Shown here piece by piece: positions 19,914-43,972 of a stretch of 64,000 nucleotides of DNA (its first letter is position 1; every line of letters starts with the position of its first letter). The stretch comes from Syntrophaceae bacterium (GTDB lineage Bacteria; Desulfobacterota; Syntrophia; Syntrophales; Smithellaceae): contig PLMQ01000015.1 in the NCBI GenBank assembly GCA_003142535.1, positions 56,693 to 120,692 of the forward strand, written 5' to 3'. A program made the translations under genes and the position numbers. The notes beneath the pieces were generated by a model that saw nothing but the letters and a program-made list of their open reading frames with translations, did no database searches and was not told the DNA's origin.

Positions 19914-19940
19914 AGAATAGTTTATCATTATGTATTCCAA

Positions 19941-20230
19941 TGTCATTGACTTAAGGACGTTCATAAAATCCACCCTAACCCTCCTTTAGAAAAGGAGGGC
20001 ACAAGAAAAAGGTTCAAGTTGTTTAAGTCCCCCTTTTTAAGGGGGGAGGAAGACTGCTTTACTTCCCCCTTTTCCTTGTGCCCTTCAGGGTACTTGTGCC
20101 CTTTAGGGTAAAGAGGGTACTCCCCCAATTTTTCCCCCTTTTTTAAAGGGGGATTGAGGGGGATTTTGAGTATGTTCATAAAATCCTCCCTAACCCTCCT
20201 TTAAAAAGGAGGGCAAAAGAAAAAGGGGGA
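19941..20230. repeat. Palindromic dispersed repeat, family C (gene-free copy)
   Basis: Two ~50-bp direct copies starting GTTCATAAAATCC (19959 and 20174) each hold a hairpin of the form CCCTCCTTT/AAAGGAGGG. Between them lie poly-C/poly-G hairpins (CCCCCTTTTTAAGGGGGG type). The left border TGTCATTGACTTAAG (19941-19955) recurs inverted at about 25883-25897. The hairpins could also stop transcription from gspD. Between this and the promoter at 20471, I see nothing beyond two more TTGACA boxes (20368, 20393) with poor -10 partners. Confidence 0.7.
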
Positions 20231-24214: not shown

Positions 24215-24400
24215 GAGCTTTGCACAACCCCTCTAATCGTCATACCGGTTTATGACCTTTAGGTTACGAAGGCCGGCGAAGTACCCTTTAGGGTGTATCC
24301 AGGAAACACTTGATAATACTGGATTCCGGTTTTCATAACCTAAAGGTCACAAGACCGGAATGACAAAATTCGTGGTTTTATACAGTTGTGCAAAGGTCTC
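24213..24400. mobile_element. 188-bp MITE-like element, copy 1, with target-site duplication
   Basis: The termini are GAGAGCTTTGCACAAC (24213-24228) and GTTGTGCAAAGGTCTC (24385-24400), inverted repeats matching at 15 of 16 positions. GATGT stands on both sides (24208-24212 and 24401-24405) as a 5-bp target duplication. The inside is roughly palindromic, with ACCTTTAGGTTA (24257) mirrored by TAACCTAAAGGT (24341). It carries no gene and needs an outside transposase. Confidence 0.9.
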
Positions 24401-24413
24401 GATGTGAGCACAA

Positions 24414-25199
24414 ATGATATTCAGCATCTGGAAATATAGAAAATTTATCTGGAAGAGCGCGGCACGGGATCTCTGGTATCGCTATGCGGGTTCATCAATA
24501 GGATTTCTCTGGAATGTAATTAATCCGCTTTGCCAGATTATGATATACACAATAGTGTTTTCTCAACTGATGGTTATCCGGATACCCAATCTGCCGTCAG
24601 GCTTTGGTTTTGCCATTTATCTTTGCTCCGGTCTGATTCCGTGGCTTGGATTCAGTGAGACAGTGAGTCGCTGTACTAACTCCTTTGTGGAAAATGCTAA
24701 CTATTTACGCAAACTGGCGATACCGGAACAGGTGTTTGTGGCGCAGAATGCGGGAAGCAGTTTTTTCAGTCTGATGATAGGTATGGCGCTGCTGGTAGCT
24801 ATCTGCTTTATTTTAGGCCATTACCCTGCGTGGTCCTGGATCAGTCTGCCCCTGGTCCTTATTTTGCTTCAAGGATTTGGCTTTGGTCTTGGTCTCCTGT
24901 TCGGAGTACTGAATGCATTCTTTCGGGATATCGGCCAGGTTGTTAATCTTTTCCTCCAGTTGTGGTTTTGGGCAACCCCCATTGTTTATACCGAAAATAT
25001 TTTACCGGAAAGTTTGAAAAGCTGGCTGTTTTTAAATCCGGCGTATCCTTTTATTCATTCATTGCAAGCTATCATAGTTGATCAGGTCTGGCCTGCCGGA
25101 AATATGTGGGCGGCAATGATTTTGCTGGCCTTTGTTTTTCCTTTATTGGGTTATCTCCTGCTCAGGAAACTCAGGCCTGAACTGCGTGATGTTCTGTAA
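24414..25199 (+). CDS. wzm: O-antigen ABC transporter permease Wzm
   Basis: 261 aa ABC-2 type permease with six hydrophobic segments. The N-terminal SAARDLWYRYAGSSIGFLWN is the hallmark of polysaccharide exporters (KpsM/Wzm/TagG), and the C-terminal half has FFRDIGQVVNLFLQLWFWAT and YTENILPE. It moves undecaprenyl-linked or lipid-linked O-polysaccharide across the inner membrane with Wzt. The gene is boxed in by two near-identical 185-bp elements. Its wzt partner lies 1 kb downstream, beyond a nuclease gene. Confidence 0.92.
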   Translation: MIFSIWKYRKFIWKSAARDLWYRYAGSSIGFLWNVINPLCQIMIYTIVFSQLMVIRIPNLPSGFGFAIYLCSGLIPWLGFSETVSRCTNSFVENANYLRKLAIPEQVFVAQNAGSSFFSLMIGMALLVAICFILGHYPAWSWISLPLVLILLQGFGFGLGLLFGVLNAFFRDIGQVVNLFLQLWFWATPIVYTENILPESLKSWLFLNPAYPFIHSLQAIIVDQVWPAGNMWAAMILLAFVFPLLGYLLLRKLRPELRDVL

Positions 25200-25238
25200 T
25201 TGACGGCAATTTCCTGTCAGGAGTGAGACAATATCATT

Positions 25239-25423
25239 GAGAGCTTTGCACAACCCCTCTAATCGTCATACCGGTTTATGACCTTTAGGTTACGAAGGCC
25301 GGCGAAGTACCCTTTAGGGTGTATCCAGGAAACACTTGATAATACTGGATTCCGGTTTTCATAACCTAAAGGTCACAAGACCGGAATGACAAAATTCGTG
25401 GTTTTATACAGTTGTGCAAAGGT
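25239..25423. mobile_element. 185-bp MITE-like element, copy 2, right end truncated
   Basis: It appears identical to copy 1 over 185 nt by eye. It has the left terminus GAGAGCTTTGCACAAC but breaks off after GTTGTGCAAAGGT, where copy 1 has three more bases. No target duplication is visible. Family C sequence begins directly after, so the end was probably lost by a later rearrangement. Confidence 0.85.
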
Positions 25424-25491
25424 TTAGGAGGGTAAAAGGGTACTCCCCAATTTTCCCCCTTTTTAAAGGGGGAGTAAGGGGGATTTATTAA
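25424..25491. repeat. Family C palindrome, left of the DUF559 gene
   Basis: A GGAGGGTAAAAGGGTACTCC block is followed by the hairpin CCCCCTTTTTAAAGGGGG (25456-25473) and the tail GTAAGGGGGATTTATTAA, which runs straight into ATG 25492. The same block occurs at 20110-20165. Confidence 0.75.
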
Positions 25492-25860
25492 ATGCTGCCC
25501 TTCAATAAGAAACTCAAAGCGTTCGCCCGGAATTTAAGAAGCAACATGACCGATGCCGAGCGGCTTATCTGGTCGAAGATCAGGAAGAAACAGATTGGCG
25601 ATTTACAGTTTTATCGGCAGAAAAATATCGGCAATTACATCGTGGATTTTTACTGCCCAAAGGGGAAACTCATTGTGGAGATAGATGGCGGGCAACATTA
25701 TGAGAGTGATGGGATGAAGAAAGATCGGGAAAGGGATCGATATCTTCAGATGCTTGGATTTGTCGTGTTGCGCTTTTCCGACATAGACGTGCTCAAAAAC
25801 ATTGATGGAGTGGTTGAAAGAATCCATGGACATTTAAAATCTCCCCCAACCCCTCTTTAA
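25492..25860 (+). CDS. DUF559 endonuclease-like protein (Vsr/PD-(D/E)xK fold)
   Basis: 122 aa, the normal size for DUF559. Conserved elements in order are MTDAERLIWSKIR (19-31), FYRQKNIGNYIVDFYC (40-55, with Asp52) and IVEIDGGQHYESD (61-73, with Glu63, Asp65 and His69 of the nuclease centre). The C-terminal LGFVVLRFSDIDVLKN resembles Vsr-like nucleases. Its DNA target is unknown. The start codon follows a family C palindrome. The last codons (SPPTPL) and stop lie inside another, so the gene is bounded by repeats on both sides. It interrupts the wzm-wzt pair and has no link to glycan assembly. Confidence 0.88.
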   Translation: MLPFNKKLKAFARNLRSNMTDAERLIWSKIRKKQIGDLQFYRQKNIGNYIVDFYCPKGKLIVEIDGGQHYESDGMKKDRERDRYLQMLGFVVLRFSDIDVLKNIDGVVERIHGHLKSPPTPL

Positions 25861-26108
25861 AAAGAGGGGAGGCATGGTGCTTAAGTCAGTGACATTGACT
25901 ATACACTGGAAATGATTTTTTCGATTCCATGTTTTTCAGAATCTCCCCCTTTTCTGAAGAGGGAGTGAACTTCTTGTAATGTCCAGGCCCCCTTTTCCTT
26001 GTGCCCTTTAGGGCAAAAGGGTACTCCCCAATTTTCCCCCTTTTTAAAGGGCACAACTGCTGACTTCCCCCTTTTTTAAGGGGGGATTGAGGGGGATTTT
26101 GAGGATGT
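25843..26108. repeat. Family C palindromes, right of the DUF559 gene
   Basis: CCCCTCTTT/AAAGAGGGG hairpin (25851-25869), then the border CTTAAGTCAGTGACATTGAC (25881-25900, the inverse of 19940-19955). Poly-C and poly-G hairpins follow to 26102, with an embedded GTGCCCTTTAGGGCA mini-palindrome (26001-26015). This fills the gene-free stretch 25861-26169; nothing coding was seen in it. Confidence 0.7.
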
Positions 26109-26169: not shown

Positions 26170-27474
26170 ATGATTAAAGTTAACGGTCTTTCCAAAAAAT
26201 TCAAGATATACTCCAATCCATGGTATCGTGGCCTGGAATGGGTGACATTTGGGCGCAAGAAGCTTCATCAGGAATTCTGGGCCCTGCGGGATATATCTTT
26301 TGCAGTTAACGGCGGAGAGTGCCTGGGAATTATTGGCCCGAATGGAGCCGGCAAGAGTACCCTGCTGAAGATATTGACCCGTGCTCTTTACCCAACCGCC
26401 GGTAAATTTGAAATTCAAGGCAGAGTGCTGTCTTTACTGGAACTGGGAACCGGCTTTAATTCCGCACTGACCGGCCGGCAAAATCTATACAACAGTGTTC
26501 ATCTCCTTGGACTGCCGAGAGAATATCTGGAAGATCGCATAGGTGATATCGAGAACTTTGCAGGATTGGGCGATTTCTTTGACCGGCCCGTCAGGATATA
26601 CTCTTCAGGAATGTATATCCGTTTGGCATTTTCTCTGTTCGTTTTTTTAAAACCGGAGGTATTGATTATCGATGAGACGTTGAGTGTCGGCGATGTTTTT
26701 TTCCAGCAAAAATCCTTTGCCAAAATGCGGGAAATAATATCCGGCGGTACGACGTGCCTTTTTGTTTCTCACGATACGGCGGCTGTGCAAAACATCTGCC
26801 AGCGGGCGATACTTCTGGAAAAAGGAGAGATGACCTTTATAGGCGATGCTGTGGAAACGGTAAGCCGATATTTTGGGACAATAGGGTCAAACCGCAAGAA
26901 CAGAGTTTCCCTGGAGAAGAAAGACAAAACAGTTGATGAGCTGGACGATATCCTCATGGAACCGACAGAGATTATGACCCATAATATTCTTTCCGGACGT
27001 GATAATCGTCATGGTACCGGCGAACTGGAGATTGTTGCTGCCCGGATTACGGACAAAATGGGACAAGATACCATGCAAGTGGAGATGCTGGAATATCTGA
27101 CTTTTTATTTGCTGTTGCGGGCTAATGATGAGATTGCATCCCCCAGTGCCGGCATTCACTTGTTTGATCGACTCGGCAATGTTGTTTTTGCCACAGGGAC
27201 CAGACAATTGCGTAAAACTCTGCCTGATCTTCATGCCGGTGATGAAATCATAGTGAAAATTGAACTCAAATTAAATGTTCAACCAGGAGAATACACATTC
27301 AGTCTCGGTACGGCGGAAGCACTTCCGGAAGAAAGCCCGAATGTTGCCTTGATCCATGATCGACACAATCTTCTGGGGCCAATAGTTGTAACTGCCGATT
27401 ACAATGAACTGATGCCATTTTACGGTATTGCTCAATTGCCAATGGACGTTGAATTTTCTAAAGTGAAAAAATGA
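26170..27474 (+). CDS. wzt: O-antigen ABC transporter ATPase Wzt with C-terminal glycan-binding domain
   Basis: 434 aa. The nucleotide-binding domain (about 1-235) has Walker A GPNGAGKST (56-64), the signature YSSGMYIRLAFSL and Walker B EVLIIDETLSVGD (near 160-173). A linker is followed by a Wzt_C beta-sandwich (about 275-430) with LSGRDNRHGTGELEIVAARI. This extended form is the kind that recognises the finished, often end-capped, O-polysaccharide before export. It overlaps the next gene by 4 bp (ATGA). The ATPase carrying its own recognition domain implies chain-end selection. Confidence 0.92.
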   Translation: MIKVNGLSKKFKIYSNPWYRGLEWVTFGRKKLHQEFWALRDISFAVNGGECLGIIGPNGAGKSTLLKILTRALYPTAGKFEIQGRVLSLLELGTGFNSALTGRQNLYNSVHLLGLPREYLEDRIGDIENFAGLGDFFDRPVRIYSSGMYIRLAFSLFVFLKPEVLIIDETLSVGDVFFQQKSFAKMREIISGGTTCLFVSHDTAAVQNICQRAILLEKGEMTFIGDAVETVSRYFGTIGSNRKNRVSLEKKDKTVDELDDILMEPTEIMTHNILSGRDNRHGTGELEIVAARITDKMGQDTMQVEMLEYLTFYLLLRANDEIASPSAGIHLFDRLGNVVFATGTRQLRKTLPDLHAGDEIIVKIELKLNVQPGEYTFSLGTAEALPEESPNVALIHDRHNLLGPIVVTADYNELMPFYGIAQLPMDVEFSKVKK

Positions 27475-43946: not shown

Positions 43947-43972
43947 GAACAAGGGGTTGCAACCCCTTGTTC
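43947..43972. repeat. 26-bp perfect palindrome
   Basis: GAACAAGGGGTTG (43947-43959) is immediately followed by its reverse complement CAACCCCTTGTTC (43960-43972), with no spacer. There is no T-run, so it is not a standard terminator. It lies between two GT genes, 32 bp before the next start. The rest of 43794-44003 shows nothing coding. Confidence 0.85.

Follow-up and report, generated by a model that had tools for sequence, protein, structure and literature searches.

The BoxC/triplex class of repeats, known since the 1990s, is found in hundreds of genomes and has been linked with genome instability. The BoxC/PIT/TM motif is composed of a C-rich arm, a G-rich arm and a mirror-image G-rich third strand, and the Escherichia coli motif has been shown to form a triplex in vitro (PMC4666352). 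It has been identified in more than 260 genomes, with 23 sites in E. coli MG1655, is concentrated in intergenic regions and has also been noted as pairs in inverted configuration (PMC4666352). The survey published in 2015 detected no mobility gene in the vicinity of these sites, and both ycjD and DUF559 are absent from its main text (PMC4666352).

The closest described architecture is that of the REPtron, in which a small gene for an HUH/Y1 tyrosine transposase (RAYT; PF01797) lies between facing palindromic REP repeats. These repeats carry a GTAG (or CGTC) tag at their foot, match the lineage of the enzyme and are dispersed over the genome, also as gene-free facing pairs. CGTC-tagged REPs are said to be without a dedicated transposase (PMC3733652), and they may be a further partner of DUF559.

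The locus described here is centred on a DUF559 nuclease gene of a Syntrophaceae bacterium, within an analysed stretch of 64,000 nucleotides (hereafter, the window; contig PLMQ01000015.1). As in a REPtron, a small gene stands between facing palindromic repeats that are also dispersed genome-wide, gene-free facing pairs are scattered elsewhere and the repeats match the enzyme lineage. In contrast to the REPtron, the gene product is not an HUH/Y1 transposase (PF01797) but a predicted nuclease of the Vsr/EDxHD type, and the repeats consist of a hairpin with a mirror third strand, having GGGGGATTT-type tails in the window and its relatives and no GTAG head or CGTC tag. With HUH transposase and GTAG tag both absent, the system is REPtron-like in architecture but is not a member of that class; the parallel to RAYTs drawn in the original prediction fits the arrangement and does not extend to the enzyme.

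The DUF559 gene and its repeats in the window

The gene (25492–25860, forward strand) encodes a protein of 122 amino acids that matches Pfam PF04480 with E=7e-37, DUF559 and MTES_1575 being its only Pfam matches, and it is the single DUF559 gene of the 2.93-Mb genome. Comparison of the DUF559 profile with the PDB returned 3HRL (E=9e-37) and the homing endonuclease I-Bth0305I (PDB code: 3R3P; E=2e-5). The fold model of the window protein has a mean pLDDT of 86, and Foldseek again placed 3HRL and 3R3P first, with Vsr following at weaker scores. The four residues proposed beforehand as a Vsr-like centre, Asp52, Glu63, Asp65 and His69, are all present and are invariant in an alignment of 37 diverse homologues, as are Thr20, Glu23, Trp27, Gln43, Gly66, Asp78, Arg81 and Arg94. 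The family profile, the fold and the conserved acidic/His active site of the DUF559 and Vsr-EDxHD nucleases are all found in this protein.

DUF559 is homologous to I-Bth0305I (EDxHD), the catalytic domains corresponding in sequence and fold, and more distantly to Vsr, which is also matched by the profile of YcjD (PMC1189080). I-Bth0305I may serve as an analogy, as a site-specific endonuclease driving the spread of its own gene; unlike it, DUF559 is a single small domain, is not intron-encoded and is tied to repeats instead of an intron target. The median dN/dS for clade I, the clade of the window gene, is 0.097 (39 pairs), which indicates that the protein has been kept functional. Within the open-licence literature, the experimental work found on DUF559 was limited to Caulobacter VsrA, which is SOS-linked and for which very-short-patch mismatch repair has been proposed (PMC12907096). 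Viral contigs yielded two distant DUF559 matches and no more.

As had been predicted, the gene starts directly after one hairpin repeat and ends within another. The upstream unit (25454–25486, forward strand) is composed of the hairpin TCCCCCTTTTTAAAGGGGGA (25454–25473), a linker and the mirror third strand GGGGGATTT (25478–25486), which stops 5 nt 5' of the DUF559 ATG. The facing downstream unit (25837–25869, reverse strand) has its third strand, AAATCTCCCCC, at 25837–25847 and its hairpin, CCCCTCTTTAAAAAGAGGGG, at 25850–25869, and encodes the last seven codons of DUF559 (KSPPTPL; six had been counted earlier) together with the stop. Additional, imperfect members of this repeat family lie downstream of the gene (25941–26099, including 26066–26096). 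Elsewhere in the window, a gene-free copy at 19938–19999 (forward strand) runs from a left MITE terminal repeat (19938–19955) through a third strand to the hairpin CCCTCCTTTAGAAAAGGAGGG (19979–19999), and a gene-free facing pair of units, arranged hairpin-tail ... tail-hairpin in a REPIN-like form, occupies 20133–20213. The DUF559 gene sits between a wzm-like ABC-2 transporter permease, its upstream operon partner (24414–25199, forward strand), and a Wzt-type ABC ATPase (26170–27474, forward strand). The distance from permease to ATPase is 970 bp in the window and, as estimated from alignment ends, roughly 10–100 bp in relatives in which both genes were found, with about 20 bp in the closest of them, L163.

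In clade I repeats the stem end AAAGGGGG is followed by a tail of GGGGG-A-TTT, that is, by its mirror image with T opposite A. Among 123 distinct hairpins, mirror tails with T were counted 47 times, a mirror tail with A once and direct tails three times. Clade I repeats contain the C-rich arm, the G-rich arm and the mirror-image G-rich third strand, and as judged by this geometry the repeat flanking DUF559 is a BoxC/PIT/TM intrastrand-triplex motif. The window repeats are a sequence variant with a T-rich/A-rich stem foot, whereas the motif for which the triplex was demonstrated is that of E. coli.

Other palindromes are also present in the region. A second family, of the GTCATTCCGG...CCGGAATCCAG type, occurs upstream of DUF559 at 25262–25400 and at about 24240–24370, and in the livK-livH interval of relatives (loci L178, L179 and L189–L191); we take it to resemble Neisseria dRS3. 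Several hairpin repeat families that are not related to one another have in their loops a short palindromic sequence, CTTGTG[AC]CCTTTAGG[GT]T or the complementary form (window positions 20075–20110, 24353 and 25379; L211–L213; L017, L023 and L186), and L214 has an intact loop without the insert seen in L211–L213, as if this sequence targeted hairpin tips. Two PF01797 genes of the same genome were considered as mobilisers of the DUF559 repeats and rejected, being flanked by other sequence. One of them has its own palindrome, AACAAGGGGTTGC...CCCCTTGTTC; at L196 the palindrome flanking the RAYT-family gene, AACAAGGGGTTGCAACCCCTTGTTC, is also found in the window at 43947–43972.

Repeats flanking DUF559 genes across phyla

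PF04480 was detected in 67 of 149 related genomes, and 80 further loci came from scanning named genomes with the profile; these represent many phyla and include Desulfobacterota, Alpha-, Beta- and Gammaproteobacteria, Chloroflexota, Aminicenantes, Melainabacteria and Chlamydiae. Under a strict rule, a full unit was a hairpin with its tail, facing the gene, on both sides, and other genes of the same contigs were used as controls. Such units flank 76 of 137 DUF559 genes and none of 574 control genes (p=1e-64). An independent measure, the presence of strong GC-rich hairpins on both sides, gave 87/142 for DUF559 versus 22/593 for controls (odds ratio 41, p=2e-53); for controls flanked on each side by 100 bp or more of intergenic DNA the figure was 7/181 (4%), compared to 61% for DUF559. 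The orientation of the nearest hairpin is also skewed, with tail-G only in 62 cases versus tail-C only in 14 upstream of the gene, and tail-C only in 69 versus tail-G only in 13 downstream. Reversed forms of the strict repeat patterns had zero matches in the 149 genomes, and this result, together with the 76/137 versus 0/574 comparison, argues that the window repeats did not arise by chance.

Eight DUF559 genes scored nothing under the strict rule, and imperfect copies were recognised by eye at all of them, including the gonococcal gene that matches structure 3HRL and genes of Legionella at which the loops have long inserts. In one Legionella locus (L111) the two flanking units hold the same loop insert of about 30 nt in inverted orientation, the flanks being alike even in the loop, and in another (L110) the upstream unit has a similar long loop. 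Flanks are present in essentially all sampled loci, across phyla, where it might have been found that DUF559 homologues usually lack them. From these comparisons it appears close to certain that DUF559 is paired with a triplex-repeat family of its own, and the idea that the gene sits inside its own repeat family is borne out by both the strict counts and the matching of repeats to clades described below. No link between DUF559 and palindromic or triplex repeats was found in the open-licence literature.

The sequence of the repeat tracks the DUF559 clade. Repeats of clade I are of the CCCCCTTTnnAAAGGGGG type, those of clade II read CCCTCTCCC...GGGAGAGGG...GGGTGAGGG and those of clade III TCCTCCGCTGGCGGAGGTGTCACGAAGTGACGGAGGTGG. 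Protein identity predicts flank similarity over 9601 pairs in which the neighbouring genes are unrelated (Mantel rho 0.58; highest of 999 permutations 0.16). In genomes with genes of two clades, the flanks of the two are unrelated to one another (median score 11), versus a median score of 27 with flanks of their own clade in other genomes (p=3e-5). Nor are the repeats equally abundant where the gene is lacking: at least two strict clade I repeats are found in 17/21 genomes with a clade I gene versus 27/128 without (p=2e-7), and clade III repeats in 8/10 genomes with a clade III gene versus 12/139 without (p=1e-6), these p-values being indicative only because the genomes are drafts and mutually related. 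Some draft genomes contain many copies and no detected cognate gene (82 in G106, 59 in G118, 36 in G112 and 34 in G006), and repeats clearly persist or spread without cognate DUF559 in some genomes. For G106, G112 and G118, which have dozens of clade I repeats and in which clade I DUF559 was not detected, the gene may have been lost or left unassembled, or the repeats may have moved in trans.

The DUF559 gene of E. coli is ycjD. TM site no. 9 of MG1655 (1351204–1351239) is the copy between ycjD and fabI, with identical coordinates, and the 3' end of ycjD overlaps another, imperfect BoxC-like copy. With a 44-nt query, the median number of copies per E. coli genome was 19. In 60 genomes, evenly spaced down the ranking, BoxC-type copies had a median of 20 in those with ycjD (n=37) versus 7 in those without (n=23; p=3e-9), a difference that is only suggestive since it is confounded with phylogroup, which ycjD presence follows (PMC12817139).

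Terminal inverted repeats, empty sites and insertions

The border shared by the window unit and the gene-free copy, pointed out in the original prediction, is indeed present at both places, but it is a terminal inverted repeat of a separate MITE and not part of the DUF559 repeat. At 25880–25897 (forward strand) lies CTTAAGTCAGTGACATTG, the 18-bp right terminal inverted repeat, which departs once from the common form, and the border at 19938–19955, CAATGTCATTGACTTAAG, is the exact inverse of it; the 18-bp terminal inverted repeat of the MITE corresponds to CTTAAGTCA-TGACATTG. A possible eroded left terminal repeat at 25229–25241 (forward strand) is a weak candidate in which 11 of the first 13 bases match. 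The MITE is 147 bp long (range 135–168 bp), holds a facing triplex-repeat pair and is found in G102 and G010, and also in G067, G120 and others, with target duplications of about 10 bp that are perfect in several copies. Loci L204–L215 and L221–L250 belong to this family and have the 18-bp ends CAATGTCATTGACTTAAG.

Terminal inverted repeats and target duplications together bound the 147-bp repeat pairs of G102 and G010 and one 698-bp element bearing DUF559; for the window unit the right end alone is clear. With a facing repeat pair inside a 147-bp element, 18-bp inverted ends and 10-bp target duplications, the window lineage resembles the MITEs of DDE transposons, and the element is presumably moved by a DDE transposase. 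As the border belongs to a separate element with terminal repeats and target duplications, conventional transposition accounts for some of the spread in this lineage. No autonomous transposase sharing the MITE ends was recognised in 30 loci. Unlike such MITEs, other inspected DUF559 units are without these ends, for example the two remaining near-complete clade I copies in G102, L026 and L036, and the 18-mer occurs in 9 of 149 relatives.

Signs of movement are seen between livK and livH, where three relatives (G028, G029 and G033) have a 6-nt gap, G022 has one repeat, G007 has a gene-free facing repeat pair and four others (G034, G019, G001 and G037) have the full repeat-DUF559-repeat unit. 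The livH genes of G034 and G028 are 97% identical. By this comparison a single intergenic site is shown to occur both with and without the repeat-DUF559 unit.

In G102, the hairpin of a 147-bp MITE is split by a 529-bp unit bearing DUF559. The 23-bp hairpin TCCCCTCTTTTnTAAAGAGGGGT stands on both sides of the unit and is found once in intact MITEs, which provide the empty-site reference. A second element of this genome, 267 bp in length and bearing a clade III remnant, has a copy of TCTCCCTTTTnTAAAGGGAGA on either side, and other element ends of the same kind also adjoin hairpins. Read from its sequence, the case in this one genome looks like an insertion at a hairpin by which the entire hairpin was duplicated, and such a duplication looks like what a two-strand cut at the hairpin base by a nuclease would give. 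The clade I and clade III units of G102 have the same ends, which hints at mobilisation in trans. A third hairpin duplication, suspected at L304/L036, proved to be one element end read from both strands.

The E. coli sites hrpB-mrcB and alx-sstT are polymorphic for the presence of BoxC, with pairs collapsing into single hairpins, and no clean target duplication was found at either. A clean empty site for ycjD was sought in E. coli and rejected: in strains without ycjD the interval from sapF to fabI is occupied by the eef efflux operon (PMC12817139), and it is for this reason not a simple empty site.

Candidate mechanism and its alternatives

The genome comparisons show the gene between facing units, repeat and protein inherited and diverging together, and gene-free pairs and single repeats dispersed. 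DUF559 and its flanking triplex repeats are probably one selfish unit, REPtron-like with an unrelated enzyme. As the best-supported mechanism, we infer that DUF559 would drive the spread or homing of the repeats. The protein, a predicted single-domain nuclease of the Vsr/EDxHD type, would recognise its own repeat family via the hairpin or the triplex and cut at the base of this structure, and repair would then insert or copy repeats, or the entire repeat-gene-repeat unit, at palindromes already present or next to them. A single domain of the PD-(D/E)XK type cannot alone join DNA, and this mechanism therefore depends on host repair. The BoxC/PIT/TM repeats would be non-autonomous progeny of the DUF559 unit, and the G-rich sequence of the repeat tail suggests that it may supply the ribosome-binding site of the gene. 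A role of DUF559 in the spread or maintenance of these palindromes was the core of the original prediction. Neither of the two outcomes named there as speaking against it, homologues usually without flanks and repeats equally abundant without DUF559, was found; it has to be qualified in that part of the spread in the window's lineage is conventional transposition. It is conceivable, and proposed here tentatively, that this represents a bacteria-wide selfish class in which a Vsr/homing-type nuclease, rather than a transposase, would spread intrastrand-triplex repeats through cuts at hairpin bases, insertion there and duplication of whole hairpins, with E. coli BoxC and the many GC-rich triplex repeats of other bacteria as descendants.

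A fold related to Vsr, the match between the YcjD profile and Vsr (PMC1189080), the SOS link and proposed very-short-patch repair of Caulobacter VsrA (PMC12907096) and an upstream repeat unit that abuts the DUF559 start codon would also agree with a function in maintenance or repair, in which the Vsr-like protein nicks hairpins, triplexes or mismatches at its repeats and is regulated by those next to its own gene, the repeats being bound and maintained but not mobilised. This appears unlikely, as it leaves unexplained the two facing copies and the gene-free facing pairs, the presence or absence of whole units between operon genes and the insertion into a duplicated hairpin.

DUF559 could instead be a small cargo gene that is tolerated while other machinery spreads the repeats, either replication slippage or a DDE transposase that uses the MITE ends. 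The 147-bp MITE with its 18-bp inverted repeats and 10-bp target duplications is in keeping with this, as is the abundance of repeats in some genomes without the cognate gene. We regard it as rather improbable, given that the MITE ends are found in just 9 of 149 relatives while the pairing extends across many phyla, and that clade-specific matching of repeats within a genome and a dN/dS of 0.1 would not be expected of a passenger. An artefact, by which GC-rich palindromes are common in intergenic DNA, where such repeats do cluster (PMC4666352), and DUF559 genes just lie in large intergenic gaps, is refuted by the controls (4% among those with 100 bp or more of intergenic DNA on both sides versus 61%; facing units at 0/574) and can be given practically no weight.

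Through the pairing with triplex repeats, DUF559 gains an evolutionary context as a large family whose annotation has been confined to "domain of unknown function" or a possible part in mismatch repair. It becomes a candidate enzyme for the orphan BoxC/triplex repeat class, whose origin is testable in a laboratory strain through ycjD of E. coli K-12. The pairing suggests that a nuclease without joining activity can sustain a REP-like system.
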